Of a stretch of DNA of 64,000 nt, positions 19,685 to 64,000 are shown in pieces. Location: NCBI GenBank assembly GCA_949126835.1, contig OX421494.1:434001-498000 (forward strand), given 5' to 3'. The stretch is from Anisus vortex. Its lineage: Eukaryota; Mollusca; Gastropoda; Planorbidae. Under the pieces are notes generated by a model. It saw only the letters and a list, made by a program, of their open reading frames with translations, was not told the origin of the DNA and made no database searches. The translations under genes were made by a program, and so were the position numbers. The stretch's first letter is position 1; each line of letters begins with the position of its first letter.

Positions 19685-19849
19685 ATATAAAAAAATAAAA
19701 TATTCTTGTCTGACCAATTTGAAATGTAGGTCCTGTACAACAGAGTTAACACGTTTCTAAGGCCACAAGACACACCATTTAAATTAAATTCTGTGGTTAT
19801 GTTTATAAAAATAGATTTAAGGCAACATTAGACGTCCACAGCTTAAATG

Positions 19850-44700: not shown

Positions 44701-47700
44701 ATCTACAGTTGCGTAGACTGGGCCAAATACGTCCCTATTTGTCCACTGACTCTGCAAAGACACTGGCAGTCGCTCTGATACTTTCCCGTATCGACTATTG
44801 TAACTCCCTGCTAGTCGGCCTGCCCGAAGACAAAATCGCCAGGCTACAGAGAATACAGACCAGTACTGCGCGCTTGGTCATGCGCAAATCAAGGCGAGAC
44901 TCGGGAACCGCCCTTCTTCGCTCGCTCCATTGGCTCCCCGTGAAAGCCAGAATTGAGTATAAAGTGGCGCTACTTTGCCATCAGTGCATTTTTAATAACG
45001 AGTTTCCGTCCTATCTCAAAGAACTCATCACACCATATGTCCCTCAAAGAACACTTCGTTCTGCCAACTCATCGCTTCTGGAAGAGCACCGTTTCTCTCT
45101 GACGACCGTTGGCCTTAGAGCCTTCTCAGTATCCGGTCCGAAGGTGTGGAATCTACTTCCCATTCAACTCAGGCAAACAAGCTCCATTGATTCCTTCAAA
45201 AAGAACTTAAAAACTCATTATTTCAATATTTATCTTAATTAACATGCTTTGAGCCCTACTGTCTTACTTTTATGTTAGGTCGGTTATTTTGTTTCGGTTG
45301 TTTGATTTGTTCCATGTTTGTAAAGTTTTGAATCATTATTTAGTTGTTTTTTTTTAGTTTTTTTTTATTTTTTTTTTTTTATTTTTTTTTTTTTTTTTTT
45401 ATATCTCTTAGCCTATAGATTGTATCCGTGTTCTGAGTTGTATGTTAAATGCGCTCTGAGCTTGCATTATGCTTGTTGGCAGCGCTATACAAATGTCATT
45501 ATTATTATTAATACATTATGTTTTAGCCACAGAATAGGTAGAGAAAAGTATGTTTTAATCCCTTTATGCCCAGTCACTAAAAGTGAAGCTCGGCTTCTGT
45601 CATTTTCTTTTGATTCAAGGCAGCGGTCACTAGAAACGCTACTATAAAATGAGAAAGGCTTAATTTATTACTGATAGCTAGTCTTAGTAAGCTTAGGAGT
45701 AAAGCAAGGCTACTAATATTAAGTAATTTGAGGTTACAACTTTTTGTTGTTTATCATTTACAGGGTCAGGAAAGACATGTAGTTTGACATGCTTATTTGT
45801 ACAATAATCAATCGTTTTCGCATCATTGTTGCAGTTTATTACACAACAGCATTTGTACATTTTGCTTGAAACATTAGCTTTGGGTGTTCGAAATTGTAGA
45901 TTTGATGAAAAAGACATTGTAAATAAGCATAAATATATAGTGTAACCAAGACCGCTGCGTTTAAAAAGTATGGCGTCGGTATTACTTCCGGAAACAGAAC
46001 AAAATGTGATTGCGCATTCTGTTATATATTTATTCTGTGATTATAGATAAGTACATTTAGGAAAAACAAAACTGCTTGGTCAATGAAATTGTAACCAGAG
46101 TTGGCACCATTTTGTCAACTTTACATTTTATGTTGCAGACTGAACTTGATGAAAAATATAACAATACTCATGAAATTAAAATCTCAAGTTGGCAGTGAAA
46201 TTGGCAAGTTGATGGCTTGTAAAGAACTTTTTCAGACAAGGTTTGTTTTCTTTTTACACTTCATAGGCAAAATATCTGATGAGCCAAAGTAATCATTAGT
46301 TTATATTGTTTATTAACTGACTAGGAAATAAAACTTATAAGTTCTAGGCACCTTTACACAGTACAGTAATCCCTTGGCACCTATACACAGTACAGTAATC
46401 CATTGGCACCTATACACAGTACAGCATTCCATTGGCACCTATACACAGTACAGTAATCCATTGGCACCTATACACAGTACAGTAATCCATTGGCACCTAT
46501 ACACAGTACAGTAATCCATTGGCCCCTATACACAGTACAGTAATCCATTGGCACCTATACACAGTACAGTAATCCATTGGCCCCTATACACAGTACAGTA
46601 ATCCATTGGCACCTATACACAGTACAGTAATCCATTGGCACCTATACACAGTACAGTAATCCATTGGCACCTATACACAGTACAGCAATCCATTGGCACC
46701 TATACACAGTACAGTAATCCATTGGCACCTATACACAGTACAGCAATCCATTGGCACCTATACACAGTACAGCATTCCATTGGCACCTATACACAGTACA
46801 GTAATCCATTGGCACCTATACACAGTACAGCAATCCATTGGCACCTATACACAGTACAGTAATCCATTGGCACCTATACACAGTACAGCAATCCATTGGC
46901 ACCTATACACAGTACAGCATTCCATTGGCACCTATACACAGTACAGTAATCCATTGGCACCTATACACAGTACAGCATTCCATTGGCACCTATACACAGT
47001 ACAGTAATCCATTGGCACCTATACACAGTACAGTAATCCATTGGCACCTATACACAGTACAGCATTCCATTGGCACCTATACACAGTACAGTAATCCATT
47101 GGCCCCTATACACAGTACAGTAATCCATTGGCACCCGATACACAGTACAGTAATCCATTGGCACCTATACACAGTACAGTAATCCATTGGCCCCTATACA
47201 CAGTACAGTAATCCATTGGCACCTATACACAGTACAGTAATCCATTGGCACCTATACACAGTACAGTAATCCATTGGCACCTATACACAGTACAGCAATC
47301 CATTGGCACCTATACACAGTACAGCAATCCATTGGCGCCTATACACAGTACAGCAATCCATTGGCACCTAAACACAGTACAGTAATCCATTGGCCCCTAT
47401 ACACAGTACAGTAATCCATTGGCACCTATACACAGTACAGCATTCCATTGGCACCTATACACAGTACAGTAATCCATTGGCCCCTATACACAGTACAGTA
47501 ATCCATTGGCACCTATACACAGTACAGTAATCTCATGAAATATAAAGAATCTACATATCCTGGAAGAAAATCTACACAGTATCAAGTTTGCAATAAGAAA
47601 ACCCTGTAGTGGCGATGATTACTGTAAAATGAAATGGTATTAGTATTAAGTGCAAGATTATATTATTTTTACATTGAAATTCTACAAATATATAAATGAA

Positions 47701-50700
47701 TATAAGTAAAATATATTTTTAATGATGAAGTAAATTGTGTGTTTCAGTTTGGAATTCGATCTAAAACAATATCAAGAGATTTTACACAGTAAGTAAAGCC
47801 CAATTGTTTATAAATAGTTTTTATTTTGATCACAATACTGATCACATGTAGCTGTTTCATTTTATGTGTGAGTTCCTCTAGTTTATTAATTTCTCTCAAT
47901 GTTCTTACGTTCCAAGTAGCTTTTGCAATGTTTTTTCTGGCATTGATTCTGTCAATTGTTTAAACAGTAGCATACTTTCCACCTCCCAGATGGTTGGTGC
48001 GGCCCTTGGTAACCGGGGCAATGGGTGAGCCGGTATGTGTTGTGGATCGGTGTTCATATTTGTGTCTAGAGCAGGCGGCGCCCATCCCTATCCTTACCCG
48101 ACCACAGCCGGGTGCCTCCAACTAGGTGGTGTGCTGCCTTGGTCATGAACACTGGGTCGTTTAAATTTGTCTGTGAACTCTTGCCCACTGGCTGGTAACC
48201 TGCATAGAGGAGGTTCTACGCCCAGTGGAGCCGTCTTAACATCACCCTTTCACATGGTTTGGTCTGCCAGCTGAAACAGTTTGCCTGGGTATGGCACTTG
48301 GAGCCACATGTAAGAGATTTAGATGATTGCTGAGGACCAGTGATTCTGTCCACCCGAAGGTGCAGCATGCCAGACATTGAAAGGTACTACCTCTACCCAG
48401 AGCCCCCTATACCCCTGTGAATATCAAGAAGTTTAAAAAGAGAATAACAATTACTTTCTTAAAGTTGTTACAGCTATGCAAATCAAAAAAAGCCTTTTAA
48501 ACTCCATTTCTATTTGTGTTCTAGTCAGCTGTTTGACCAAATGAATTGTATATTTCAGATGTTCCAAGAAGTCATGTGTTCTAGTCAGCTGTTTGATGAA
48601 ATGAATTGTATATTTCAGATGTTCCAAGAAGTCATGTGTTCTAGTCAGCTGTTTGATGAAATGAATTGTATATTTCAGATGTTCCAAGAAGTCATGTGTT
48701 CTAGTCAGCTGTTTGACAAAATGAATTGTATATTTCAGATGTTCCAAGAAGTCATGTGTTCTAGTCAGCTGTTTGACAAAATGAATTGTATATTTCAGAT
48801 GTTCCAAGAAGTCATGTGTTCTAGTCAGCTGTTTGATGAAATGAATTGTATATTTCAGATGTTCCAAGAAGTCATGTGTTCTAGTCAGCTGTTTGATGAA
48901 ATGAATTGTATATTTCAGATGTTCCAAGAAGTCATGTGTTCTAGTCAGCTGTTTGATGAAATGAATTGTATATTTCAGATGTTCCAAGAAGTCATGTGTT
49001 CTAGTCAGCTGTTTGATGAAATGAATTGTATATTTCAGATGTTCCAAGAAGTCATGTGTTCTAGTCAGCTGTTTGATGAAATGAATTGTATATTTCAGAT
49101 GTTCCAAGAAGTCATGTGTTCTAGTCAGCTGTTTGATGAAATGAATTGTATATTTCAGATGTTCCAAGAAGTCATGTGTTCTAGTCAGCTGTTTGATGAA
49201 ATGAATTGTATATTTCAGATGTTCCAAGAAGTCATGTGTTCTAGTCAGCTGTTTGATGAAATGAATTGTATATTTCAGATGTTCCAAGAAGTCATGGAAT
49301 ATTTCAGCAGTGGACTCAAATGGCTGAAGCTATTAGTAACTATAACAATTTGGTAAGTTAATTTATTGGAATAAGTAGTTGTCAACTGTATAGTCAAGTC
49401 ATCAGAAATGTGTATAGTCAAGTCATCAGAAATGTGTATAGTCAAGTCATCAGAAATGTCTATAGTCAAGTCATCAGAAATGTGTATAGTCAAGTCATCA
49501 GAAATGTGTATAGTCAAGTCATCAGAAATGTGTATAGTCAAGTCATCAGAAATGTGTATAGTCAAGTCATCAGAAATGTGTATAGTCAAGTCATCAGAAA
49601 TGTGTATAGTAAGTCATCAAAAATGTGTATTTAAATACAAAAGAGTGACTCTGAACTTAAGTCAATGAAGTCATATTCTGTATTTTTCTTCACTTTTATA
49701 TGTATGTATATTTCTGGGTGACTTTGGATGGCTAAATTGACCTATTTCCCCATATCTTATTGAGCTGAAACATGACACACAGATGTTAAAACCATGACAC
49801 ACAGATGTTAAAACCATGACACACAGACAGGGTTCCCGCGGCCTCCTGAAATTTCAGGATGTCCTGAAATCCTCCTGAAATGGCAAAAAAGGGCAAAAAC
49901 TCCTGAAAACCTCCTGAAATTTGAAATAATCTCCTTAAATGTCCTGAAAAATTGAGCTGACCCCTATTTTTTCCTTCTCCAACACGTGTCCCTAGTTCAA
50001 CAGCCCCACCTCCCGCTTGTTCGCTTACGCCAAGCCAATCCCGTCTCGGTAAAGATGGTATACATACATTTACAGCTCTTCCTCCTCTTTCGCTCCCTCT
50101 CCCACAGTTTGGTGTCTGCTAGATTAGATAATGATAAGGACTAAGGTGCCTATTTTCGCGATCAATGTTGAGAATGCCTGATTACGCTACGCGCGGCGCC
50201 TACTAGTCTACTTGGGTTCAGCGAACCGACACATTTTGCCAAATTGATTTATTTTGAAATATATTTATATCAAAATGCACAGAAATAGGTCTTTTTATTA
50301 GTTAAAAAGAAAACGATGACGTTTAAGACGCTATCTAATATCATATGCTAAAAATTCCAGTATGCCTATTTAGCTAGCCCTACTAGAGGAGTTATTCGCG
50401 ATGTAAGCCTACGCCGATATCATTATCCACTTTTTAAAGGTGCAGGCCCTACATGGTTTTACTAATTATTAAATCGTATGGGTAGGCCTACAATGTGGTT
50501 TTTTTTAATCAATGTGGGAAATGTAGGCAGACGATTTTGGGTCTAGGCAGAGGCCTAGCCGGTGTGGCCCTAGGTCTATCAGTTTATCAGTCTAATCTAG
50601 AAGTCTAAGTCATTTTATTCACCAATACATTGATGAAATGCACTCAATGTTGAATATATCTGACTAGAAATCATTACAAACAAAGTTAATGGTAATTAGG

Positions 50701-53700
50701 TTAGGGCACTTGTATAATGCGTCATCAAAATCGCGTCATCAAAACCGGCGCCGTTCTGTCTAGAAAGCATAGGCAGGCCTACTTCAAAAGACTTTTTTTT
50801 TTGGGTAGACCCACTATAGTGTTAGCCTACTATAGGGATAGGAACGTGAGTATGGACAGTGACTTAGATGTAGAAACAGATAGTTTACTTTCCCTTATGA
50901 CTAATGGCTGTATTGATCGGTTGTTTTAAATAAGTGAAGCGCTGTGTATGCCTTATATGCATGATTGAAACCATTTTTTTAAGGAAAGTTTTCAAATTAT
51001 AGTGAATATTTTGTAACTTTTAAGTTTAAATGGTATGAATTTTTGAGAAGTTAAAAGGCAGTATGCAACTTATCTACAGGTGTTGTGTTTTTTTTAATAC
51101 CGTAGTTTAGGGAGATATTATATGCACCAGTTCAGAATCAGCTACTCCCTCCCCCCTTGCACTATATTTGCCCCTCCTTACCTGCTGTAAGTTTTGTTTT
51201 TTTTTGTAGCAGGATTTTAATAGGCCTAATGGATTATGATCCTAATGATTTGAAAGTAATCAAATAGGATTATCTAGTTGTCCTTTACAATAGCAGTTTT
51301 TTTTCTTGTCAAAGTGATAGTTTTTTTTAACTTGTAAATCTGTAAGCTTTCTATATACTTTTCAATGTAGGCCCATATAAATATTTTCTCTATACTTGTT
51401 AATGTAACACTCTATGTTACAGATGCCCCTATACAGGATACTATATTTCCATTCTCTACCTCCCCCCCCCCTTTTATTTTCATAAACCAAATTTCTTTTT
51501 TTTTGTACTTTTTTTTTTTAAATTATAAGATTTCTAAAGACAATTAAAAGACTCTATATAATGAACATAGCTTAATGGTACATATTTAGCTTCCACATTG
51601 TAATGCCCTTAAAAATATTTTATTTAATTTTATTTGTATCTGAGTCATTGTTTAGTGATGTAGTGAATTCAGTTTTGCCGCGCCTCCTGAAATTTTAGAT
51701 TTTCTCCTGAAAAACTCCTGAAAACCTCCTGAAATTTTGATTTGAGTTTGGTGCAGGAACCCTGCACAGAGGTTCAAACCATGACACACAGATGTTAAAA
51801 CCATGAGACACAGATGTTAAAACCATGACACACAGATGTTAAAACCATGACACACAGATGTTAAAACCATGACACACAGATGTTAAAACCATGACACACA
51901 GATGTTAAAACCATGACACACAGATGTTAAAACCATGACACACAGATGTTAAAACCATGACACACAGATGTTAAAACCATGACACACAGATGTTAAAACC
52001 ATGACACACAGATGTTCAAACCATGACACACAGATGTTCAAACCATGGCACACAGATGTTCAAACCATGACACACAGATGTTCAAACCATGACACACAGA
52101 TGTTCAAACCATGACACACAGATGTTCAAACCATGACACACAGATGTTCAAACCATGACACACAGATGTTCAAACCATGACACACAGATGTTCAAACCAT
52201 GACACACAGATGTTCAAACCATGACAACACATAATTTCACATTTTTCAGCCACATCCCCCCATCCTGTCACAAAAATCTATTTTTTGAATGTGTTTTTTC
52301 ATCACACTATGATGTCCATTTTTGAATTCCTTAATGAGTGCACCATTTATATATTTTCCCCTTTCTGCTGTTAAAATTATGTTTTCTTTCTTTGTGGTTG
52401 GCAAAGGGCAAAGAAAACTTTATTTTTAGGAGAAACTTTGTTTTTAGGAGAAACTTTGTTTTTAGGAGAAACTTTGTTTTTAGGAGAAACTTTGTTTTTA
52501 GGAGAAACTTTGTTTTTAGGAGAAACTTTGTTTTTAGGAGAAACTTTGTTTTTAGGAGAAACTTTGTTTTTAGGAGAAACTTTGTTTTTAGGAGAAACTT
52601 TGTTTTTAGGAGAAACTTTGTTTTTAGGAGAAACTTTGTTTTTAGGAGAAACTTTGTTTTTAGGAGAAACTTTGTTTTTAGGAGAAACTTTGTTTTTAGG
52701 AGAAACTTTGTTTTTAGGAGAAACTTTGTTTTTAGGAGAAACTTTGTTTTTAGGAGAAACTTTGTTTTTAGGAGAAACTTTGTTTTTAGGAGAAACTTTG
52801 TTTTTAGGAGAAACTTTGTTTTTAGGAGAAACTTTGTTTTTAGGAGAAACTTTGTTTTTAGGAGAAACTTTGTTTTTAGGAGAAACTTTGTTTTTAGGAG
52901 AAACTTTGTTTTTAGGAGAAACTTTGTTTTTAGGAGAAACTTTGTTTTTAGGAGAAACTTTGTTTTTAGGAGAAACTTTGTTTTTAGGAGAAACTTTGTT
53001 TTTAGGAGAAACTTTGTTTTTAGGAGTGAAACGTATATTAGATTACTTCACTATCTATGTCAGTGACGTGTATGTATTCACTGAACTATATATATATGGA
53101 GTGCTCAAGCAATTAAATTGTTGGAGAAAATGCGGACTTTTAAATATAGCTTAGTGTATTGTATGGCACTGAGCTATATATGCATGTCTAAATAATAAAT
53201 ATTCATTAAAATTACTTACTCCCTTCCTGTATTGACCTTCATATTTGCGATGTATACCTTCAGTCCCAGCCATTATTTTACTAATTATTCCCTCCATCCC
53301 AGACATTTTTTCAGAATGGCTGAGACATCGATAGGGTTCCGAAATTATTTTTTTTACTTTTTTGTTGGTAAAAATTGATGGTAACACGAAGAGAGTAAAT
53401 TGCTAGAAACATAATAACTTACCTTATTAGAATAATCTAATTCATAAAGTACCGGTAATTGTATTCATTTGTAATATTAATCCATAAGAAAAAGTCTCAT
53501 CAACATGTACCGCCATAATAACGGAAGGTAATTCGGTAGCGTCCATTAAGACCGCACTTTCAATTTCACAAAAAAAAACTCAATAATTGGTCAATTTTCA
53601 TAATTTAAAAATCGAAATAAAATTCAACTATTCCGCTATCGAATAAATATTTTGCCCGAGACTATGGTGAAAGGTCAAATCCTTTTTTTTAATCTTTAAA

Positions 53701-56700
53701 TATCTTCCTTGAGGGAAATATACGTGGCTGGGATTTCAGGAGATTTCATATTTGGGGGGAAATATACGACAATATACGTGTCTGGGTTTGAGGGAGAGAA
53801 ATAGTTAGAGGAAAATATACGCGACCAGGGCTGTAAGGGTTAACATATATTAAATGCATTATCCATAAAAATCATCAACCATTTTTTTTTATACTTCGAC
53901 ATTAAATGAATGAATCCGGTACTCATTAAAATTAACACAATTTACTCGTATGAGAGAGTATATATAAATATATAAATATAATGTATATAATGTATATAAT
54001 GTATATAATGTATACAAGAGTTCATTTTTAGAAAATTTCAATGACACAATTAGGAAAATTTTGAAAATTTTTGGTACTTCCAGGTATATAGCTCAGTGCC
54101 ATACAGTGCACTTATCTATATTTAAAAGTCCGCATTTTCTCCCATTTTTTCTTCTCCAATTTAATTGCTTGAGCACTCCATGTATATATAGCTCAGTGTA
54201 TGTATTAGATTACTACACTATCTATCTCAATGACTGAAATCTTTGAAAAAGTCAATGTTCTCTTTTGTTAGAGAGAGAGAGTGGAACAACTAGACAACAG
54301 AGGTCAAGGCATTGTCAGTGAAATTGGAGAATTGCAGAAAAAACCAAACACTGGGACAGAGCTGGAAGAATTGTGAGAATTTTTGTTTCCCTTTATTGGA
54401 TAAATTTGGTAAAAATTTTCATTTCATTAACATAAAGCTTGAACTTTTTTTTTCAGTGAAACAGAATCTAAAAGGTTATATGGTCAACTTTTGCAAAGCT
54501 CACAAGGTATATTAGAGCATTTAAACTTTTATAAAGCTGACAATATAGGGTTGATTTGTGAGCTATATAATATAATATAAAAATAAAATAGCATGCTAAA
54601 GTGCATTAAACACACAAATGCATGGTTGATCATTTGCGTTATTAGAGATTTATTAGAGATTTATTAGAGATTTATTCGAGATTTATTAGAGATTTATTAG
54701 AGATTTATTAGAGATTTATTAGAGATTTATTAGAGATTTATTAGAGATTTTTTAGAGATTTTTTAGAGATTTATTAGAGATTTATTAGAGATTTATTAAT
54801 GGACACTAGAACTATAAAACGTAAAGGAAAAATATTTGAACAATTTTTATGTTGTCGTGGTCGGTGCAAAAGGTTGAAAATTTGATGTAATGTATGGTCC
54901 AGGGCATAGCAACTATGTGCCTGGTTTTAGCTCAATAGCATATTGGGATGTGGGTGAATTCGCCATCTAAAGGTCAAGTCAGTTGGTCACTAGCCAGTCA
55001 GAAAAGTTCATAGAAAATGTTAAATATAGAAAATGTTAAAAATAGAAAATGTTGAAAATTCAAAGTTTAATATAACATACAAAAACTTTATACATTAAAT
55101 AAATAAATAAATGTAAAGAATTTTTCTAGTTAGAAAATTAAATCTCATTTTTTAATAGGATTTCCAGACTTATTAAAAAATGTATTTTAGCAAATGTTTT
55201 ATTCTCTATGTATAGGCAATGGTTCCTTTGACATGACAGAACATCACAAGATAGTTGACCTTGTTAGCAAATGTTTTATTAGGAGAGATGAATGTACCAG
55301 AGTGCTGTACAAACATTTAAGGTACACATTGATCAGATATACAAAACTACTTCATGATTTTATTACTTAACTAAAAATACACAGTATTGGCAGAACTTTT
55401 TAGCACCTTTCTATCAGTTGGCTCACTATTTTGAATTCTAGCAACTAACGTCTTGTGAATCTGTTTAATTGTTGTTGTTTTTATTTTGTAGCAAAATTCT
55501 TGAATGTTTGGAAAAACTTCAACCTCTCCTCCCCGACTTGGAAATGGCATTATATGAAATAGAAGCAGCCAGCACACAGCTTAAAACAATGCAGTGTAAA
55601 CGTCAAGCAGATCTCTGGAAACTCTTAGCTAATCTTGTAAGTACCGGTAGCTAAATAGCTGAAAACTGTTAGCTCATTTTGTAAGTAGCTAAAAAGCTGG
55701 AAACTGTTAGCTCATTATGTAAGTAGCTAAATAGCTGGAAACTGTTAGCTCATTATGTAAGTAGCTAAATAGCTGGAAACTGTTAGCTCATCTTGTAAGT
55801 AGCTTAACATCTGGAAACTGCTAGTTGAAACAATTTTATTCAAATGTATATCAATCATAAAGTAAGTAAATTTTTTTACTAACTTGTATTTCAGAACCGT
55901 TCTATTGTTGATGGTGCAGAAATGTCTTAATTTGTATTTCAGAATCGTTCTATTGTTGATGGTGCAGAAATGTCTTAATTTGTATTTCAGAATCGTTTTA
56001 TTGTTGATGGTGCAAAAAAGTCTTAATTTGTATTTCAGAATCGTTCTATTGTTGATGGTGCAGAAATGTCTTAATTTGTATTTCAGAATCGTTCTATTGT
56101 TGATGGTGCAGAAATGTCTTAATTTGTATTTCAGAATCGTTTTATTGTTGATGGTGCAGAAATGTCTTAATTTGTATTTCAGAATCGTTCTATTGTTGAT
56201 GGTGCAGAAATATCTTAATTTGTATTTCAGAATCGTTCTATTGTTGATGGTGCAGAAATGTCTTAATTTGTATTTCAGAATCGTTCTATTGTTGATGGTG
56301 CAGAAATGTCTTAATTTGTATTTCAGAATTGTTCTATTGTTGATGGTGCAGAAATGTCTTAATTTGTATTTCAGAATCGTTCTATTGTTGATGGTGCAGA
56401 AATGTCTTAATTTGTATTTCAGAATCGTTCTATTGTTGATGGTGCAGAAATGTCTTAATTTGTATTTCAGAATCGTTCTATTGTTGATGGTACAGAAATG
56501 TCTTAATTTGTATTTCAGAATCGTTCTATTGTTGATGGTGCAGAAATGTCTTAATTTGTATTTCAGAATCGTTCTATTGTTGATGGTGCAGAAATGTCTT
56601 AATTTGTATTTCAGAATCGTTTTATTGTTGATGGTGCAGAAATGTCTTAATTTGTATTTCAGAATCGTTCTATTGTTGATGGTGCAGAAATGTCTTAATT

Positions 56701-59700
56701 TGTATTTCAGAATCGTTCTATTGTTGATGGTGCAGAAATGTCTTAATTTGTATTTCAGAATCGTTCTATTGTTGATGGTGCAGAAATGTCTTAATTTGTA
56801 TTTCAGAATCGTTCTATTGTTGATGGTGCAGAAATGTCTTAATTTGTATTTCAGAATCATTTTATTGTTGATGGTGCAGAAATGTCTTAATTTGTATTTC
56901 AGAAACGTTCTATTGTTGATGGTGCAGAAATGTCTTAATTTGTATTTCAGAATCGTTCTATTGTTGATGGTGCAGAAATGTCTTAATTTGTATTTCAGAA
57001 TCGTTTTATTGTTGATGGTGCAGAAATGTCTTAATTTGTATTTCAGAATCGTTTTATTGTTGATGGTGCAGAAATGTCTTAATTTGTATTTCAGAATCGT
57101 TCTATTGTTGATGGTGCAGAAATGTCTTAATTTGTATTTCAGAATCGTTCTATTGTTGATGGTGCAGAAATGTCTTAATTTGTATTTCAGAATCGTTTTA
57201 TTGTTGATGGTGCAGAAATGTCTTAATTTGTATTTCAGAATCGTTTTATTGTTGATGGTGCAGAAATGTCTTAATTTGTATTTCAGAATCGTTCTATTGT
57301 TGATGGTGCAGAAATGTCTTAATTTGTATTTCAGAATCGTTGTATTGTTGATGGTGCAGAAATGTCTTAATTTGTATTTCAGAATCGTTCTATTGTTGAT
57401 GGTGCAGAAATGTCTTAATTTGTATTTCAGAATCGTTCTATTGTTGATGGTGCAGAAATGTCTTAATTTGTATTTCAGAATCGTTCTATTGTTGATGGTG
57501 CAGAAATGTCTTAATTTGTATTTCAGAATCGTTTTATTGTTGATGGTGCAGAAATGTCTTAATTTGTATTTCAGAATCGTTCTATTGTTGATGGTGCAGA
57601 AATGTCTTACTTTGTATTTCAGAATCGTTCTATTGTTGATGGTGCAGAAATGTCTTAATTTGTATTTCAGAATCGTTTTATTATTGATGGTGCAGAAATT
57701 TCTTAATTTGTATTTCAGAATCGTTCTATTGTTGATGGTGCAGAAATGTCTTAATTTGTATTTCAGAATCGTTCTATTGTTGATGGTGCAGAAATGTCTT
57801 AATTTGTATTTCAGAATCGTTTTATTGTTGATGGTGCAGAAATGTCTTAATTTGTATTTCAGAATCGTTCTATTGTTGATGGTGCAGAAATGTCTTAATT
57901 TGTATTTCAGAATCGTTCTATTGTTGATGGTGCAGAAATGTCTTAATTTGTATTTCAGAATCGTTCTATTGTTGATGGTGCAGAAATGTCTTAATTTGTA
58001 TTTCAGAATCGTTCTATTGTTGATGGTGCAGAAATGTCTTAATTTGTATTTCAGAATCGTTTTATTGTTGATGGTGCAGAAATTTCTTAATTTGTATTTC
58101 AGAATCGTTCTATTGTTGATGGTGCAGAAATGTCTTAATTTGTATTTCAGAATCGTTCTATTGTTGATGGTGCAGAAATGTCTTAATTTGTATTTCAGAA
58201 TCGTTTTATTGTTGATGGTGCAGAAATGTCTTAATTTGTATTTCAGAATCGTTCTATTGTTGATGGTGCAGAAATGTCTTAATTTGTATTTCAGAATCGT
58301 TCTATTGTTGATGGTGCAGAAATGTCTTAATTTGTATTTCAGAATCGTTCTATTGTTGATGGTGCAGAAATGTCTTAATTTGTATTTCAGAATCGTTCTA
58401 TAGTTGATGGTGCAGAAATGTCTTAATTTGTATTTCAGAATCGTTGTATTGTTGATGGTGCAGAAATGTCTTAATTTGTATTTCAGAATCGTTTTATTGT
58501 TGATGGTGCAGAAATGTCTTAATTTGTATTTCAGAATCGTTCTATTGTTGATGGTGCAGAAATGTCTTAATTTGTATTTCAGAATCGTTCTTTGTTGATG
58601 GTGCAGAAATGTCTTAATTTGTATTTCAGAATCGTTCTATTGTTGATGGTGCAGAAATGTCTTAATTTGTATTTCAGAATCGTTCTATTGTTGATGGTGC
58701 AGAAATGTCTTAATTTGTATTTCAGAATCGTTCTATTGTTGATGGTGCAGAAATGTCTTAATTTGTATTTCAGAATCGTTCTATTGTTGATGGTGCAGAA
58801 ATGTCTTAATTTGTATTTCAGAATCGTTCTATTGTTGATGGTGCAGAAATGTCTTAGTTTGTATTTCAGAATCGTTCTATTGTTGATGGTGCAGAAATGT
58901 CTTAATTTGTATTTCAGAATCGTTCTATTGTTGATGGTGCAGAAATGTCTTAATTTGTATTTCAGAATCGTTCTATTGTTGATGGTGCAGAAATGTCTTA
59001 ATTTGTATTTCAGAATCTTTCTATTGTTGATGGTGCAGAAATGTCTTAATTTGTATTTCAGAATCGTTCTATTGTTGATGGTGCAGAAATGTCTTAATTT
59101 GTATTTCAGAATCGTTCTATTGTTGATGGTGCAGAAATGTCTTAATTTGTATTTCAGAATCGTTCTATTGTATAATTGTTGATGGTGCAGAAATGTCTTA
59201 ATTTGTATTTCAGAATCGTTCTATTGTTGATGGTGCAGAAATGTCTTAATTTGTATTTCAGAATCGTTCTATTGTTGATGGTGCAGAAATGTCTTAATTT
59301 GTATTTCAGAATCGTTCTATTGTTGATGGTGCAGAAATGTCTTAATTTGTATTTCAGAATCGTTCTATTGTTGATGGTGCAGAAATGTCTTAATTTGTAT
59401 TTCAGAATCGTTCTATTGTTGATGGTGTAGAAATGTCTTAATTTGTATTTCAGAATCGTTCTATTGTTGATGGTGCAGAAATGTCTTAATTTGTATTTCA
59501 GAATCGTTGTATTGTTGATGGTGCAGAAATGTCTTAATTTGTATTTCAGAATCGTTCTATTGTTGATGGTGCAGAAATGTCTTAATTTGTATTTCAGAAT
59601 CGTTCTATTGTTGATGGTGCAGAAATGTCTTAATTTGTATTTCAGAATCGTTCTATTGTTGATGGTGCAGAATCTTCCCCTGTGATGGTTCCCTCTAACC

Positions 59701-59785
59701 AAAGAATGACCACAATGTTTGACTCTTACGGATCAAATCTTGAGTCTATCAAGCTCATGGATGATAATACAACCTATACTCAAAG
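20671..59785 (+). CDS. IKBKB/CHUK: IKK-alpha/beta-type inhibitor of NF-kappa-B kinase (18 exons, 3' end beyond window)
   Basis: Cytosolic serine/threonine kinase that phosphorylates I-kappa-B and so releases NF-kappa-B. The spliced frame gives about 700 codons. The kinase domain (about 10-305) has glycine loop G17, G19, G22, catalytic Lys39, HRDLKPEN at 139-146, DLG at 163-165, activation-loop Ser174 and Ser178 in the IKK-type SxxxS spacing, and APE at 187-189. A ubiquitin-like domain spans about 311-395, then a helical scaffold/dimerisation domain to about 655. Conserved strings such as PENCCGL, DYWSFG and ENWLQLML-like EQWLQLML place it with animal IKK-alpha/beta. It shares features with both vertebrate paralogues, so it probably predates their split. 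Human family members have about 745-756 residues. The NEMO-binding C-terminus is not found before 64000. All junctions are GT-AG and in phase. Introns are packed with tandem arrays, some built from the splice sites themselves. Confidence 0.93.
20985..21585. repeat. 21-bp minisatellite in intron 1
   Basis: About 28 copies of a unit containing ACTGATTTAGTTTACACATA plus G. Variants include ACATGGACT and ATATGTGGACT. It ends 13 bases before the exon 2 acceptor. Each unit has a CATAG word, and reading from it in the exon 1 phase meets TAG again after six codons. Confidence 0.95.
21599..21814 (+). CDS. IKBKB/CHUK: IKK exon 2 (residues 31-102)
   Basis: Acceptor CACCAACAG/AAG, donor AAAG/GTGAGT, 72 codons in phase 0. 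Contains the catalytic lysine in NIAIKMCRH and the hinge region [13 protein letters not shown], both typical of IKK. Confidence 0.93.
22325..22438. mobile_element. hAT-like MITE, 114 bp
   Basis: Inverted ends CAGGGTTGTGGAGTC and GACTCCACAGCCCTG. Flanks AATGTTAT (22317-22324) and AATGTGAT (22439-22446) agree at 7 of 8 bases, fitting the 8-bp duplication of hAT elements. The interior is rich in GACTCC words. Lies in intron 2. Confidence 0.78.
23238..23399 (+). CDS. IKBKB/CHUK: IKK exon 3 (residues 103-156)
   Basis: Acceptor TTTTTTCCAG/GTT, donor AACAG/GGTAAG read as AGG/GTAAGT, phase 0. Encodes [12 protein letters not shown] and the catalytic loop [13 protein letters not shown]. Confidence 0.94.
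23815..24300 (-). pseudogene. decayed CR1-like LINE reverse transcriptase
   Basis: Read on the - strand in broken frames: [15 protein letters not shown], then after an interruption [20 protein letters not shown], then [11 protein letters not shown] and GVPQGPL. These are the ordered core motifs of a CR1-type reverse transcriptase. Multiple frameshifts and stops make it a dead fossil. Lies in intron 3. Confidence 0.65.
24424..25990. repeat. 37-bp to 32-bp minisatellite in intron 3
   Basis: About 46 units. The left part has units of about 37 bp with ATTAGCCCTGACTCCATGTG and CACTCAGTCAGGCAGTC. From about 25170 the units shorten to about 32 bp by losing the GCCCTG block, giving GCAGTTATTAGATTCCATGT. 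It is a clear succession from one unit type to another within one array. Confidence 0.93.
26280..26369 (+). CDS. IKBKB/CHUK: IKK exon 4 (residues 157-186)
   Basis: Acceptor TGTCCACAG/ATA, donor TTA/GTAGGT (a weaker donor), phase 0. Encodes the magnesium-binding DLG and the activation loop with Ser174 and Ser178 before YVGTMQYL. Confidence 0.92.
26620..26744 (+). CDS. IKBKB/CHUK: IKK exon 5 (residues 187-228)
   Basis: Acceptor CCATTTCAG/GCT, donor TG/GTAAGT. Ends after two bases of the Trp228 codon. Encodes [25 protein letters not shown] and PPVEW. Confidence 0.93.
27083..27827. other. candidate insertion at the left edge of the exon-6 array
   Basis: A lone, diverged array-like copy (GCGTTGTTTCCTGATAACAG) lies at 27063-27082. 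The array proper begins at 27828. The roughly 745 bp between is unlike the array, has a GACCTGCCAACCCTTCTG start and AGGCCTA-rich end, and no coding. I could not define terminal repeats. Confidence 0.35.
27828..29376. repeat. 39-bp minisatellite carrying the exon 6 acceptor junction
   Basis: About 40 copies of a 39-bp unit containing GTTGTTTCCTGTTACCTGAC then ATAATGCAGTTATACTT. The unit spans the equivalent of the exon 6 splice junction. Ten copies read TTACCAG/ACATAATGCAG and so keep an AG. Others read CCTGA or CCTGG. The last copy reads TTATCAG/GCATAATGCAGTT and is the real acceptor. Long frames on both strands result from the period being divisible by three. Confidence 0.95.
29377..29481 (+). 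CDS. IKBKB/CHUK: IKK exon 6 (residues 228-263)
   Basis: The acceptor TTATTATCAG/G is the last unit of the preceding array. G completes Trp228, then [16 protein letters not shown]. Donor TGCAA/GTAAGT, phase 2. It aligns with the WHSKVRQK-like segment of the kinase C-lobe in relatives. Confidence 0.9.
29655..29796 (+). CDS. IKBKB/CHUK: IKK exon 7 (residues 263-310)
   Basis: Acceptor TTTATTTCAG/G, donor AAG/GTGATT, phase 0. Encodes [20 protein letters not shown], the last kinase helices, and [13 protein letters not shown]. Confidence 0.92.
29836..30175. repeat. 42-bp minisatellite in intron 7
   Basis: Eight copies of a 42-bp unit with TTTCAATATTTGTGATTGAT and CTAATGAATGTTGCCATAAA. Starts about 40 bases after the exon 7 donor. 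It does not include the splice site. Confidence 0.94.
30290..30481 (+). CDS. IKBKB/CHUK: IKK exon 8 (residues 311-374), ubiquitin-like domain
   Basis: Acceptor CCTCTCTCAG/TTC, donor CCT/GTAAGT, 64 codons in phase 0. Encodes [16 protein letters not shown], a first ubiquitin-like strand pair, and the helix region [15 protein letters not shown]. Confidence 0.9.
30592..30885. repeat. 33-bp minisatellite in intron 8
   Basis: About nine copies of a 33-bp unit with TTGCCCTATATATGACCTGA and GTCTAGACTTGTA. Ends about 80 bases before exon 9. Confidence 0.94.
30965..31093 (+). CDS. IKBKB/CHUK: IKK exon 9 (residues 375-417)
   Basis: Acceptor TTGTTTCAG/AAC, donor AAA/GTAAAT, 43 codons in phase 0. Encodes [13 protein letters not shown], the end of the ubiquitin-like domain, and the linker to the scaffold helices. 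Confidence 0.88.
31094..31534. other. unique part of intron 9
   Basis: About 440 bp of ordinary AT-rich intron between the exon 9 donor and the first array of the intron. I see nothing coding in it. Confidence 0.6.
31535..33320. repeat. 26-bp minisatellite in intron 9
   Basis: About 68 copies of a 26-bp unit containing AGGTAGTGAACAGAGTAAAT then ATAACT. Almost no variation, apart from a few TAATTATAA units and one CAAGG. It runs directly into the related 26/20-bp array. Confidence 0.96.
33321..34728. repeat. mixed 26-bp and 20-bp minisatellite in intron 9
   Basis: Derived from the same ancestor as the preceding array: the core is AAGGTAGTGTAGAAAGTAAA plus ATGAAC (26 bp), mixed with a shorter AAGGTAGTGTAGAAAAGAAC form (20 bp) and a GATAAGAAC form. 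Units are interspersed in an irregular order. The Tyr/Leu-rich frames on the - strand are by-products. Confidence 0.94.
34729..35179. other. unique spacer between arrays in intron 9
   Basis: 450 bp. The part 34905-35100 is less AT-rich than its surroundings (GTGATTGGCTGGGATTTG, GTGGCTGGGCATTGTG) and may be an interspersed-repeat fragment of a kind I cannot name. No coding seen. Confidence 0.45.
35180..43240. repeat. 36-bp minisatellite, about 224 copies, intron 9
   Basis: An 8.06-kb array of a 36-bp unit made of TTTGCTAGTC, the near-palindrome ATGAATAAATTCAT and CTTCTGTTTAGA. I see only a handful of deviations: a 2-bp deletion near 38199, 3-bp deletions near 39350 and 39796, and single substitutions near 35213, 36830, 36969, 37582, 37717 and 37757. 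It ends 16 bases before the exon 10 acceptor. Frames of over 1,000 codons on both strands arise only because 36 is divisible by three. Confidence 0.98.
43257..43348 (+). CDS. IKBKB/CHUK: IKK exon 10 (residues 418-448)
   Basis: Acceptor TTTTCCTCTAG/GAA, donor GCACA/GTAAGT, phase 2 at the end. Encodes [20 protein letters not shown] and the RAAQ that matches the QRAA of relatives: the start of the scaffold helices. Confidence 0.9.
43395..45518 (+). mobile_element. L2-type LINE, 5'-truncated
   Basis: Begins about 50 bases after the exon 10 donor and carries the reverse transcriptase frame 43428-45242, then a 3' untranslated region with long T-runs and the end GCGCTATACAAATGTC followed by (ATT)n, the characteristic L2/CR1-type tail. 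The endonuclease half is missing, as is usual for 5'-truncated copies. Same strand as the host gene. Confidence 0.8.
43428..45242 (+). CDS. L2-like LINE reverse transcriptase, partial ORF2
   Basis: 604 codons with no stop. RT motifs in order: [18 protein letters not shown] (Asn160 onward), [32 protein letters not shown] (motif with catalytic Asp), [10 protein letters not shown] (from 289), [10 protein letters not shown] with the YADD box at 322-325, then [12 protein letters not shown], and a C-terminal [20 protein letters not shown] block seen in L2/Rex-type proteins. The apurinic-like endonuclease that should precede it is absent, so the first ATG is only the first Met of a truncated frame. 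The intact frame implies a fairly recent insertion or recent purifying selection in its source. It polymerises cDNA for its own family and has no role in the IKK gene. Confidence 0.85.
   Translation: MHLRNKIESADSSRVLFKITTEMLGGAGKPVLPCSIPPADLPDSFNQFFTDRIKKIREDLDNQTSLLHNDPVFQGSHLSEFHSISEASVKEIVSKMTKSSCELDPIPVSLFNDCINELIPSITTMMNASLASGIVPQSMKNALVKPLLKKPSLDPECLKNYRPVSNLPFLSKVLERIVLKQLLPHLEQHCLLEQFQSAYRKSHSTETALVRVVNDLLCTSDSGHVSILAMLDLSPAFDTLDHEILIDRLATTFGCSGCVLRWFRSYLSERTQSVAIDEFLSAPSTLKYGVPQGSVLGPVMFAMYVYPLGQVIKPFEISYHFYADDTQLYDHAVPLDAPRLAEKVSSAIANVYSWSGRNGLKMNEEKTEIIRIGTKRNLVKFTGSESITVINCQVPFVNKVKNLGVLLDPTLSFDQHISHMCRCLYLQLRRLGQIRPYLSTDSAKTLAVALILSRIDYCNSLLVGLPEDKIARLQRIQTSTARLVMRKSRRDSGTALLRSLHWLPVKARIEYKVALLCHQCIFNNEFPSYLKELITPYVPQRTLRSANSSLLEEHRFSLTTVGLRAFSVSGPKVWNLLPIQLRQTSSIDSFKKNLKTHYFNIYLN
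45693..45917 (-). CDS. possible antisense THAP-domain first exon or remnant
   Basis: The open frame contains [12 protein letters not shown], then [16 protein letters not shown], matching the first part of THAP zinc-finger domains (C-x2-4-C near the N-terminus, later a HxFP word). The domain is not completed: the frame runs into non-THAP residues after QQK and stops. A donor-like GT after CAACAAAAA could end an exon. Upstream on the same strand, CCGGAAGTAATACC and GCCATACTT resemble ETS- and YY1-type promoter words. It could be the first exon of a nested gene or a fragment of a THAP-bearing transposase. Weak call. Confidence 0.35.
   Translation of the reverse strand: MSFSSNLQFRTPKANVSSKMYKCCCVINCNNDAKTIDYCTNKHVKLHVFPDPVNDKQQKVVTSNYLILVALLYS
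46139..46240 (+). CDS. IKBKB/CHUK: IKK exon 11 (residues 448-482)
   Basis: Acceptor TGTTGCAG/A completes Gln448, donor ACAAG/GTTTGT. Encodes [18 protein letters not shown] and the KELFQT that matches the KLDFFKTS block of relatives. Confidence 0.88.
46348..47532. repeat. 29-bp minisatellite in intron 11
   Basis: About 41 copies of a 29-bp unit containing GGCACCTATACACAGTACAG then TAATCCATT. Variants GGCCCC, CAGCAATCC and CAGCATTCC are mixed. Includes one CACCCGATAC unit near 47135. Confidence 0.95.
47748..47788 (+). CDS. IKBKB/CHUK: IKK exon 12 (residues 482-496)
   Basis: A 41-bp micro-exon. Acceptor GTGTTTCAG/T completes Ser482, donor CACA/GTAAGT. Encodes [13 protein letters not shown], matching the IQIDLEKYSEQ block of relatives. 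Its short size is unusual, but phase and homology both fit. Confidence 0.88.
47865..48410 (-). pseudogene. LINE 5' end remnant with start of endonuclease
   Basis: On the - strand, after a GC-richer leader, the sequence encodes [20 protein letters not shown], the typical N-terminus of an apurinic-type LINE endonuclease as in RTE-like or craniofacial-protein-2-like elements. The homology stops at about 47865, so only the leader and the first endonuclease strand remain. Retaining the 5' end rather than the 3' end is unusual for a LINE and suggests later deletion. Lies in intron 12. Confidence 0.6.
48500..49300. repeat. 60-bp minisatellite carrying the exon 13 acceptor junction
   Basis: Thirteen copies of a 60-bp unit. 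Each has TGTTCTAGTCAGCTGTTTGA, ATGAATTGTATATTTCAG and ATGTTCCAAGAAGTCATG. The last of these words is the start of exon 13. AG positions run from 48558 to 49278 at exact 60-bp steps. Small variants are GACCAA, GACAAA and GATGAA. Confidence 0.96.
49279..49352 (+). CDS. IKBKB/CHUK: IKK exon 13 (residues 496-520)
   Basis: The acceptor TATATTTCAG/AT is the last copy in the array. Donor TTG/GTAAGT, phase 0. Encodes [20 protein letters not shown], matching the GITSDKLLLAWREMEQA block. This is a different frame from the open frame that runs through the array. Confidence 0.85.
49388..49632. repeat. 24-bp minisatellite in intron 13
   Basis: Ten copies of a 24-bp unit containing TATAGTCAAGTCATCAGAAA then TGTG. 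It begins 36 bases after the exon 13 donor. Confidence 0.95.
49765..52225. repeat. 22-bp minisatellite in intron 13, split by an hAT-like element
   Basis: Copies of a 22-bp unit containing CATGACACACAGATGTTAAA plus AC. Three lie at 49765-49827 and about 20 at 51765-52225, where the second half reads GTTCAAACC instead of GTTAAAACC. The element at 49828-51764 separates the two parts. Confidence 0.94.
49828..51764. mobile_element. hAT-like non-autonomous element, 1.9 kb
   Basis: Ends are inverted: CAGGGTTCCCGCGG at the left and GTGCAGGAACCCTG at the right. CACAGA lies on both sides. Since the host is a CACAGA-containing array, the true duplication length cannot be fixed. Both sub-termini are packed with CCTCCTGAAAT and CTCCTGAAAA words, a layout familiar from hAT elements with CAGGGTTCC ends. 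The 1.9-kb interior has C-runs and T-runs but no transposase frame. Confidence 0.75.
52226..52411. other. unique intron 13 spacer
   Basis: About 190 bp of ordinary intron between two arrays. It contains a TTTTTT-rich patch and no recognisable feature. Confidence 0.5.
52412..53030. repeat. 18-bp minisatellite in intron 13
   Basis: About 34 perfect or near-perfect copies of AGGAGAAACTTTGTTTTT. Each unit contains CTTTGTTTTTAG, which resembles a 3' splice site. In the exon 13 phase the next unit supplies an in-frame TAG. Confidence 0.96.
53079..54198. mobile_element. TIR element, 1.1 kb, 8-bp duplication
   Basis: Starts CACTGAACTATATATATATG and ends CATGTATATATAGCTCAGTG. The 8 bases TATGTATT flank it on both sides (53071-53078 and 54199-54206). 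About 100 bp match in inverted orientation at the two ends, including GGAGTGCTCAAGCAATTAAA and GAGAAAATGCGGACTTTTAA. The word CACTGAGCTATATA recurs at the inner edge of the left repeat. The 8-bp duplication suggests an hAT or P-like origin. No transposase seen. Confidence 0.75.
54272..54372 (+). CDS. IKBKB/CHUK: IKK exon 14 (residues 521-554)
   Basis: Acceptor CTTTTGTTAG/AGA, donor GAATT/GTGAGA. Encodes [20 protein letters not shown] and [14 protein letters not shown], matching the LVERMMALQTDIVDLQRSP block. The exon opens with AGAGAGAGAG, so several AG positions lie next to each other. Confidence 0.87.
54457..54506 (+). CDS. IKBKB/CHUK: IKK exon 15 (residues 554-571)
   Basis: 50-bp exon. 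Acceptor TTTTTTTTCAG/T, donor CAAG/GTATAT. Encodes [16 protein letters not shown], matching the EEQARELYRRL block of the scaffold helices. Confidence 0.85.
54640..54800. repeat. 11-bp microsatellite-like array in intron 15
   Basis: About 14 copies of TTAGAGATTTA, with two TTTTTAGAG variants and one TTCGAG. Confidence 0.93.
54801..55215. other. unique part of intron 15
   Basis: AT-rich intron with three TAGAAAATGTTAAA-type tandem words near 55012-55050 and no coding feature. Confidence 0.5.
55216..55321 (+). CDS. IKBKB/CHUK: IKK exon 16 (residues 571-606)
   Basis: Acceptor TATGTATAG/GC, donor TTAAG/GTACAC. Encodes [20 protein letters not shown] and [11 protein letters not shown], matching the long helix before the CKQK block in relatives. 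Confidence 0.87.
55492..55636 (+). CDS. IKBKB/CHUK: IKK exon 17 (residues 606-654)
   Basis: Acceptor TATTTTGTAG/C completes Ser606, donor AATCTT/GTAAGT, phase 0. Encodes [20 protein letters not shown] and [14 protein letters not shown], matching the ELLPKVE and KRQKELWNLLKIA blocks at the end of the scaffold domain. Confidence 0.9.
55637..55830. repeat. 38-44-bp array repeating the exon 17 donor junction
   Basis: Four extra copies of the exon 17 end and its donor lie downstream: GT positions at 55637, 55681, 55719, 55757 and 55795 (steps 44, 38, 38, 38). Each copy reads GGAAACTGTTAGCTCAT, two or three bases, then GTAAGTAGCT. The exon counterpart is GGAAACTCTTAGCTAATCTT. Confidence 0.9.
55878..59680. 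repeat. 48-bp minisatellite carrying the exon 18 acceptor junction
   Basis: 79 acceptor-bearing copies at 48-bp steps from 55894 to 59645. The total offset of 3,751 bases equals 78 units plus 8 inserted bases near 59170 and minus 1 base near 58591. The unit holds TTGTATTTCAG, then AATCGTTCTATTGTTGATGG TGCAGAA, the first nine codons of exon 18, then ATGTCTTAA. Variants are mostly single substitutions. Confidence 0.97.
59646..59785 (+). CDS. IKBKB/CHUK: IKK exon 18 (residues 655-701, last exon seen)
   Basis: The acceptor is the last array copy, TTGTATTTCAG/AAT. The donor is CAAAG/GTTTGT. Encodes [20 protein letters not shown] then [18 protein letters not shown], a Ser-rich linker that corresponds to the variable region before the NEMO-binding tail. 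Phase 2 at the end. No further exon was found before 64000. Confidence 0.82.
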
Positions 59786-60044
59786 GTTTGTTATATACTC
59801 AAAGGGCTGTTATATACTCAAAGGATTGTTATATACTCAAAGGTTTGTTATATACTCAAAGGGCTGTTATATACTCAAAGGGTTGTTATATACTCAAAGG
59901 TTTGTTATATACTCAAAGGGCTGTTAAATACTCAAAGGGTTGTTATATACTCAAAGGGCTGTTATATACTCAAAGGGTTGTTATATACTCAAAGGTTTGT
60001 TATATACTCAAAGGGCTGTTATATACTCAAAGGGTTGTTATATA
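59786..60044. repeat. 19-bp array repeating the exon 18 donor junction
   Basis: About 13 copies of a 19-bp unit, GTTTGTTATATACTCAAAG. The CTCAAAG end of each unit copies the end of exon 18, so the junction CAAAG/GTTTGT recurs in four copies. Other copies read GGCTGT, GGTTGT or GATTGT and lose the GT or weaken the donor. A last copy, GAAAGGTTTGTTATAT, lies beyond the inserted element at 61226-61241. Confidence 0.93.
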
Positions 60045-61241: not shown

Positions 61242-61393
61242 TAAAATCTAAACCTGCTGTGATAAGAACTAGTCTAAAGAGTTTTAGTTTATTCAAATGT
61301 TTGCTAATGATGTTTGCAATTTAATCTTTGGCTACATTTAAACTTATGTTTTTTGTAATTAAGTTTTGTAATTTGTGTGTATTACTAAGTATT
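61242..61393. other. unique sequence
   Basis: 150 bp of AT-rich sequence between the TIR element and the last array. No exon with IKK C-terminal homology found. Confidence 0.5.
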
Positions 61394-64000
61394 ATAATTG
61401 ATTACTTCTAGTGAATTTTAGGGAGACTAAATGCCTTATAATTGATTACTTGTAATAAAGTTAATGGAGACTAAATGCCTTGAAATTGATTTCTTGTAAT
61501 AAAGTTAATGGAGACTAAATGCCTTATAATTGATTACTTGTAATAAAGTTAATGGAGACTAAATGCCTTATAATTGATTACTTCTAATGAAGTTAATGGA
61601 GACTAAATGCCTTATAATTGATTACTTGTAATGAAGTTAATGGAGACTAAATGCCTTATAATTGTTTACTTCTAATGAAGTTAATGGAGACTAAATGCCT
61701 TATAATGGTTTACTTCTAATGAAGTTAATGGAGACTAAATGCCTTATAATTGATTACTTGTAATGAAGTTAATGGAGACTAAATGACTTATAATTGATTA
61801 CTTGTAATGAAATTAATGGAGACTAAATGCCTTATAATTGATTACTTGTAATGAAGTTAATGGAGACTAAATGACTTATAATTGATTACTTGTAATGAAA
61901 TTAATGGAGACTAAATGCCTTATAATTGATTACTTGTAATGAAGTTAATGGAGACTAAATGACTTATAATTGATTACTTGTAATGAAATTAATGGAGACT
62001 AAATGCCTTATAATTGATTACTTGTAATGAAGTTAATGGAGACTAAATGACTTATAATTGATTACTTGTAATGAAATTAATGGAGACTAAATGCCTTATA
62101 ATTGATTACTTGTAATGAAGTTAATGGAGACTAAATGACTTATAATTGATTACTTGTAATGAAGTTAATGGAGACTAAATGACTTATAATTGATTACTTG
62201 TAATGAAATTAATGGAGACTAAATGCCTTATAATTGATTACTTGTAATGAAGTTAATGGAGACTAAATGACTTATAATTGATTACTTGTAATGAAATTAA
62301 TGGAGACTAAATGCCTTATAATTGATTACTTGTAATGAAGTTAATGGAGACTAAATGACTTATAATTGATTACTTGTAATGAAATTAATGGAGACTAAAT
62401 GCCTTATAATTGATTACTTGTAATGAAGTTAATGGAGACTAAATGACTTATAATTGATTACTTGTAATGAAATTAATGGAGACTAAATGCCTTATAATTG
62501 ATTACTTGTAATGAAGTTAATGGAGACTAAATGACTTATAATTGATTACTTGTAATGAAATTAATGGAGACTAAATGCCTTATAATTGATTACTTGTAAT
62601 GAAGTTAATGGAGACTAAATGACTTATAATTGATTACTTGTAATGAAATTAATGGAGACTAAATGCCTTATAATTGATTACTTGTAATGAAGTTAATGGA
62701 GACTAAATGACTTATAATTGATTACTTGTAATGAAGTTAATGGAGACTAAATGCCTTATAATTGATTACTTGTAATGAAGTTAATGGAGACTAAATGACT
62801 TATAATTGATTACTTGTAATGAAATTAATGGAGACTAAATGCCTTATAATTGATTACTTGTAATGAAGTTAATGGAGACTAAATGACTTATAATTGATTA
62901 CTTGTAATGAAGTTAATGGAGACTAAATGCCTTATAATTGATTACTTGTAATGAAGTTAATGGAGACTAAATGACTTATAATTGATTACTTGTAATGAAA
63001 TTAATGGAGACTAAATGCCTTATAATTGATTACTTGTAATGAAGTTAATGGAGACTAAATGACTTATAATTGATTACTTGTAATGAAGTTAATGGAGACT
63101 AAATGCCTTATAATTGATTACTTGTAATGAAGTTAATGGAGACTAAATGACTTATAATTGATTACTTGTAATGAAATTAATGGAGACTAAATGCCTTATA
63201 ATTGATTACTTGTAATGAAGTTAATGGAGACTAAATGACTTATAATTGATTACTTGTAATGAAGTTAATGGAGACTAAATGCCTTATAATTGATTACTTG
63301 TAATGAAGTTAATGGAGACTAAATGACTTATAATTGATTACTTGTAATGAAATTAATGGAGACTAAATGCCTTATAATTGATTACTTGTAATGAAGTTAA
63401 TGGAGACTAAATGACTTATAATTGATTACTTGTAATGAAGTTAATGGAGACTAAATGCCTTATAATTGATTACTTGTAATGAAGCTAATGGAGACTAAAT
63501 GACTTATAATTGATTACTTGTAATGAAATTAATGGAGACTAAATGCCTTATAATTGATTACTTGTAATGAAGTTAATGGAGACTAAATGACTTATAATTG
63601 ATTACTTGTAATGAAGTTAATGGAGACTAAATGCCTTATAATTGATTACTTGTAATGAAGTTAATGGAGACTAAATGACTTATAATTGATTACTTGTAAT
63701 GAAATTAATGGAGACTAAATGCCTTATAATTGATTACTTGTAATGAAGTTAATGGAGACTAAATGACTTATAATTGATTACTTGTAATGAAGTTAATGGA
63801 GACTAAATGCCTTATAATTGATTACTTGTAATGAAGTTAATGGAGACTAAATGACTTATAATTGATTACTTGTAATGAAGTTAATGGAGACTAAATGCCT
63901 TATAATTGATTACTTGTAATGAAGTTAATGGAGACTAAATGACTTATAATTGATTACTTGTAATGAAATTAATGGAGACTAAATGCCTTATAATTGATTA
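61394..64000. repeat. 44-bp minisatellite with 88-bp higher-order dimers, runs off the window
   Basis: About 59 copies of a 44-bp unit with TAATTGATTACTTGTAATGA and TTAATGGAGACTAAATG. From about 61750 the units alternate between an A type (GAAGTT...ATGACTTA) and a B type (GAAATT...ATGCCTTA), forming an 88-bp dimer. In places a four-unit pattern appears. The first units are more variable, and the array is not finished at 64000. Confidence 0.96.

Follow-up and report, generated by a model that had tools for sequence, protein, structure and literature searches.

How a gene can yield a full-length protein when one of its 3' splice sites is repeated dozens of times is the question raised by the IKK gene of the planorbid snail Anisus vortex. 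The stretch of DNA analysed, hereafter the window, comprises 64,000 nucleotides (434-498 kb; positions 434,001 to 498,000 of OX421494.1, assembly GCA_949126835.1) on a 57.6-Mb contig of an 863-Mb genome, and holds exons 1-18 of this gene; exon 19 lies outside it, from C3:499152 on. At the end of intron 17, the acceptor of exon 18 belongs to a tandem array that multiplies it 79-fold. Comparable arrangements, termed mirages, are known from amphioxus, where minisatellites lie across exon-intron boundaries at either 5' or 3' splice sites (PMC3087553, PMC3902484).

A 79-copy acceptor array before exon 18

Tandem Repeats Finder (TRF) reported a 48 bp unit present in 78.9 copies with 97% matches (Table 1), while a site scan located the acceptor TATTTCAG 79 times, its last bases running from 55894 to 59645. 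Successive sites are spaced by 48 bp in 76 of 78 cases, with single spacings of 47 bp and 56 bp. Each unit joins the terminal part of intron 17 to the 27 nt (nine codons) with which exon 18 begins, so all 79 copies span the exon-intron boundary; the number and extent of the acceptors, the unit length and the nine shared codons given in a preliminary description of this locus were all confirmed. The splice signal is retained as TATTTCAG in 79/79 units, as it is in 13/13 units of a second array at exon 13; at exon 6, 10 of the 39 upstream copies retain AG and 29 have TG instead. With this anatomy, the array counts as a mirage, a type already described, of very large size. The earlier judgement that it is unusual holds only with reservations, given the 13-copy acceptor array of exon 13, four more junction arrays and the amphioxus examples.

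When 25 bases of the unit were compared with the whole genome, allowing <=3 mismatches, 79 matches were found, all within the array, and a reversed-pattern control gave one. An origin as a dispersed repeat or transposon was ruled out by this confinement to one array genome-wide. The 79 copies comprise 20 distinct units, with private variants scattered along the array and two length variants. The 76 decoy units of 48 bp carry 33 substitutions in total, of which position 8 accounts for 17 and the last 12 positions for none; the 12 variable positions all fall within the first 36 (chance P 0.018), and the 12-nt acceptor is invariant in 79/79 copies. An RNA structure looping out the array was also considered and rejected, as a three-unit fold was no better than shuffles (z 1.04).

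The host gene

The gene model, a prediction made from tblastn matches to mollusc IKKs and a reading of the splice sites, has 19 exons with GT-AG at every intron, consistent phases and 727 codons followed by a stop. The exon 17 donor is in phase 0, and exon 18, when started at the last array copy, fits the 19-exon reading frame, in keeping with the gene, exon and phase assigned previously. The predicted protein has the arrangement of IKK alpha/beta, with a kinase domain (PF00069, residues 12-284, E 3.5e-49) followed by an IKBKB scaffold dimerization domain (SDD; PF18397, residues 395-651, E 6.4e-58); exons 1-17 code for 654 aa, just past the end of the SDD match. A genome search with this protein gave 54 matches, of which the IKK-like ones were confined to the window locus and the remainder were kinases of <=45% identity. 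Neither a second IKK copy (61 of 126 candidates scored) nor a spliced retrocopy that might record earlier splicing was present among these 54 matches, and a pseudogene is ruled out by the open 727-aa frame.

Consequences of decoy use

Upstream copies meet a stop in the IKK phase in 78/78 cases, and full-length protein can come from copy 79 only. The stop follows 11 codons in 75 of the 78 (74 TAA, one TAG), the exceptions being copy 36 (27 codons), copy 57 (199 codons) and copy 69 (5 codons), and 52 of the 78 share one identical decoy peptide reading. The uniform 11-codon peptide and TAA described previously thus hold for the presence of a stop in every copy, but not for its position, its codon or the peptide throughout. 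A product with the 11-codon end would comprise 665 aa, terminating 14 residues past the SDD and lacking the C-terminal tail. Recursive splicing was ruled out, the joined exon 17-decoy junction, as read from the sequence, containing no GT.

Acceptor strength does little to separate the copies. A crude matrix built from the 17 other acceptors of the gene gave 5.6 for copy 1 and 6.3-7.9 for copies 2-79, copy 79 itself scoring 6.3, with the real IKK acceptors, scored leave-one-out, ranging from -5.5 to 12.6 (median 8.0). With the threshold at the third-lowest real site, 156 AGs of the 48 bp array (two in each unit) also pass, as do 223 from the 36 bp array in intron 9 and 67 from an 18 bp array at 52415-53026, the last consisting of 34 copies of the acceptor-like AAACTTTGTTTTTAGGAG away from any predicted exon. 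With five GTAAGT donors and 79 like-scoring acceptors, intron 17 offers 395 pairings, one of which gives the full-length protein.

A probably tolerated minisatellite and its alternatives

The anatomy, phase, stops and uniqueness of the array were computed here, along with the other junction arrays and the single-copy, open state of the gene. The array is probably a hyper-expanded minisatellite of the mirage type that arose by duplication of the boundary and is tolerated, not required, with the exon-proximal site being used. The boundary segment, with its intron 17 end and 27 nt of exon 18, would have been tandemly duplicated and amplified to 79 copies, perhaps by unequal exchange or slippage, in a repeat-dense region near a chromosome end where like events appear to have struck other IKK junctions. 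In productive mRNA, copy 79 would be the acceptor paired with the first exon 17 donor, being the sole copy in contact with the exon body and lying 140 nt from the exon 18 donor; the decoys would be passed over because each heads a 27 nt exon remnant followed by another acceptor. Exon definition would put decoys at a distance from the exon 18 donor at a disadvantage. The same rule may apply at every array, in that use of the exon-proximal site of each tandem set would explain why the array is tolerated. A degree of leakage into the final decoys is to be expected, which would generate stop-bearing RNA or a 665-aa tail-less protein. The strong last-acceptor choice envisaged in the preliminary description is thereby nearly forced if full-length protein is made, as only the last copy joins the exon body. 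In favour of the tolerated-minisatellite reading are the like strength of the 79 sites, the open single-copy gene with its kinase and dimerization domains, the exon 17-18-19 protein order in relatives, the high share of the gene taken up by arrays, the undisturbed splicing reported for amphioxus mirages (PMC3087553, PMC3902484) and the exclusive use of the distal site in a beta-globin pre-mRNA with duplicated 3' sites (PMC5389562). A further point in its favour is the number of junction-spanning arrays: six are seen, where random seeding of the gene's 22 arrays on 18.2 kb of unique sequence leads to an expectation of 0.9-1.1 (P 0.00005-0.0005, depending on setting).

Several observations weigh against this interpretation. 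The lack of substitutions in the acceptor hints at constraint, which a purely neutral array does not predict, although the hint is weak as the copies are non-independent. The sole TACTAAC branch-point consensus of intron 17 is at 55877, directly before copy 1, and scanning from the branch point, if it rules, would favour the first decoy. Copies 76, 77 and 78 would yield exons of 284, 236 and 188 nt, all compatible with exon definition. In beta-globin constructs with duplicated 3' sites, considered further below, splicing was very inefficient (PMC5389562), and by analogy acceptor duplication may carry a cost. Finally, the seeding test was post hoc and concerned a single gene, with one of the six arrays lying at an acceptor of the untranslated region (UTR) that is predicted only.

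It is unlikely that the array instead serves as an unproductive outlet, through which a fixed fraction of IKK pre-mRNA is spliced to a decoy and degraded, keeping IKK output low. By the usual junction rule, a stop-bearing decoy RNA is a target for nonsense-mediated decay (NMD). This proposal accords with the in-phase stops in all 78 exon 18 decoys and all 12 exon 13 decoys (each reading NVPRSHVF-stop), and with the unchanged acceptor 12-mer; however, shuffling at constant composition yields a stop in phase with a probability of 0.73 for the 48 bp unit and 0.81 for the 60 bp unit, so such stops are expected by chance and are therefore no sign of design. Nor do the arrays share a common design, the AG having been lost from most upstream exon 6 copies and two exon 18 donor decoys being in frame. 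The outlet suggested in the preliminary description consequently gained no positive support.

It is distinctly unlikely that the array acts as a length-coded splicing rheostat, in which identical, constrained acceptors compete for the exon 17 donor and copy number sets the ratio of full-length to degraded or tail-less product; were this so, the strength of innate immune signalling could vary heritably, and perhaps somatically. An alternative protein end, whereby a stable 665-aa IKK keeps the kinase and dimerization domains but loses the conserved tail, is very unlikely. The decoy stop does fall just past the folded part of the protein, and the tail that would be lost, KEQ.ESL.Y.S, is kept in five snail sequences, but for most copies the exon 18-19 junction would lie kilobases downstream, a classic NMD situation. 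Searches of protein collections also found no such truncated protein from A. vortex or its relatives, which is weak evidence; they gave no A. vortex entry, and one of the searches covered the best 120 of 2226 matches. That the array is an assembly artefact with a far smaller real copy number is likewise very unlikely because it contains 20 distinct units, scattered private variants and two length variants, with many unrelated arrays around it, even though long arrays are prone to misassembly and a globin mirage was wrongly assembled in the amphioxus draft (PMC3087553).

Other arrays in the gene and their genomic setting

Five further arrays span IKK junctions, at the acceptors of exons 1 (predicted), 6 and 13 and the donors of exons 17 and 18 (Table 1). 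At exon 17, the real GTAAGT after 55636 is followed by four decoy GTAAGT sites, all of which run into a stop (...NLVSTGS-stop). At exon 18, GTTTGT is intact in 4 of the 14 copies, these being the real donor and three decoys; two of the decoys would add 19 or 38 aa in frame and the third meets a stop. The 44 bp array before exon 19 resembles an intron end, with CAG at 0 of 84 upstream TTACTT sites, and most copies of the 36 bp intron 9 array carry the acceptor-like TTCTGTTTAG, which has a low score of 2.2.

Table 1. Position of the IKK gene and of the tandem arrays associated with it, in window coordinates
Feature	Position	Strand	Basis and remarks
48 bp boundary-spanning array, 78 decoys and the copy starting exon 18	55880..59672	+	TRF, site scan
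IKK coding region, exons 1-18	20671..59785	+	ATG 20671; tblastn, gene model, Pfam, B. glabrata alignment
Exon 17 of IKK	55492..55636	+	Gene model; matches human IKK alpha 605-649
Exon 18 of IKK, 140 nt	59646..59785	+	Gene model; starts at 79th acceptor copy
38 bp array at exon 17 donor	55617..55824	+	TRF 55647-55824; left limit approximate (exonic part)
19 bp array at exon 18 donor, 14 copies	59775..60044	+	TRF, donor sites
60 bp array at exon 13 acceptor, 13 TATATTTCAG sites	48515..49296	+	TRF, site scan
39 bp array at exon 6 acceptor, including first exon bases	27824..29389	+	TRF, site count
82 bp array, ten TTAYCACAG sites, at exon 1 5'UTR acceptor (predicted only)	19843..20659	+	
44 bp array	61392..64000 and 1148 bases past window	+	Ends 4 bases before exon 19
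36 bp array, intron 9, 224 copies, 8 kb, 99% matches	35182..43244	+	TRF; ends 13 bases before exon 10
21 bp intronic array	20978..21587	+	Ends 12 bases before exon 2

Array sequence makes up 61% of the IKK gene, 28% of the window before it and 25% of the 49 kb after it, compared with 3.7% of 116 kb of CCT-family loci. Coverage was 5.5% of 16 kb from mid-chromosome and 23.5% of 16 kb taken at 450 kb from eight contig starts, each sample being small (eight 2-kb stretches, five arrays); a tie between repeat density and chromosome ends is no more than suggested. Junction arrays are not a genome-wide rule, as none overlapped the exon matches in 14 Cpn60/TCP1 loci (49 of 50 matches, a single-exon-like C8 match being left out), although a 13 bp array occurs immediately upstream of an acceptor and an 18 bp array 24 bases from a match end.

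Other elements are also present in the window. Two arrays of a 20 bp unit that holds the branch-point consensus TACTAAC, at 7008-9575 (128 copies) and 15913-16851 (47 copies), are each preceded by a near-identical stretch with the same frames (~9932-10194 and ~15645-15907), which therefore represents a duplicated segment. Upstream of IKK, the minus strand carries an open 914-aa frame with a SCAN domain (12377-15118, E 7e-10), and intron 10 contains an open reverse-transcriptase frame of 623 aa (43371-45239, RVT_1 E 5.1e-30) from a non-LTR-like element (one without long terminal repeats).

IKK in related snails

The predicted protein is 70% identical over the alignment to that of Biomphalaria glabrata (P0122), 64% to Lymnaea, 58% to Candidula and 52% to B. 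pfeifferi, the last value being low because the annotated N-terminus differs. Proteins of Bulinus, B. glabrata and Lymnaea all follow the exon 17-18-19 order; they differ in the codons at the start of exon 18, and the part that follows (ESx.LMDD..TYTQ) is kept in relatives.

In the B. pfeifferi entry (P0123), six CKKSPDDI blocks open the sequence in place of the kinase N-terminus, and IKK proper takes over at exon 6; four of the six blocks follow R-HNVV, which is how the exon truly starts, and the main repeat is 20 residues long (HNVVCKKSPDDINVFYLSSR). These blocks read as translated exon 6 boundary repeats, in which the AGG codon would imply an intact AG. If so, the exon 6 junction would be arrayed in another genus with a different unit (60 bp, as against 39 bp here). 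Separately, a 228-aa B. glabrata entry (P0003) ends exactly at exon 5 (...VEW), and in the window, read-through of the exon 5 donor gives W then a stop; P0003 may represent an intron-retention product or a cut model.

Comparison with known systems

As the sequence around each acceptor is nearly equal, the array constitutes a natural experiment on the part that order, distance to the next donor and the exon body play in 3' splice site choice. Boundary repeats can also mislead annotation, the B. pfeifferi IKK entry being an example.

Human IFI6/G1P3 (6-16) reportedly contains a minisatellite with multiple splice donor sites, described in 1995. The likeness is that a splice site of an immune gene is multiplied by tandem repeats, but there it is donors, not acceptors; the 48 bp array does not multiply a 5' splice site, whereas such multiplication is seen in the donor arrays of exons 17 and 18, the latter, with its in-frame decoys, being the nearest parallel. 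Among gastropods, the abalone TSSK1-like gene has a long, length-polymorphic intronic minisatellite, with a 27 bp unit and 62 repeats according to a figure legend, although passages on it do not describe it as spanning a splice junction (PMC6905558). Searches of one open-access library listed no junction-spanning molluscan case, and none was found in passages of PMC6905558, PMC6171432 and PMC3862624. In humans, tandem repeats located at boundaries may give rise to novel introns (PMC2812944). Identical tandem acceptors, of which the distal one is used, are also found in the beta-globin construct (Reed and Maniatis 1986, via PMC5389562): with an upstream site heading an exon of 14, 55 or 205 nt, only the distal site was spliced in vitro. 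That test construct, however, had two sites, against 79 in the IKK gene.

The likeness to the amphioxus mirages lies in tandem units over an exon-intron boundary, retained splice signals and the involvement of several junctions. Those of Adh3 are said to have been described by Canestro in 2002. Mirages are also found in the globins BflGb6 and BflGb9 and in troponin C, with similar repeats in PGBD5; AG or GT persists in many of their units, involvement may extend beyond a single junction and regular splicing is reportedly undisturbed (PMC3087553, PMC3902484). For the IKK arrays, the open frame suggests that splicing may likewise be undisturbed. The amphioxus cases are backed by RT-PCR (reverse transcription PCR), whereas the IKK array was analysed here as DNA. 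With regard to instability, one haplotype was seen here, and B. pfeifferi has a different exon 6 unit. The units of BflGb6 measure 150-160 bp and number 6 and 3 in its haplotypes, in contrast to the 79 units of 48 bp before exon 18. The IKK gene also differs in carrying several such arrays at once and in having a mollusc host, adding to the boundary-spanning minisatellites a molluscan case with several of them in one immune gene.

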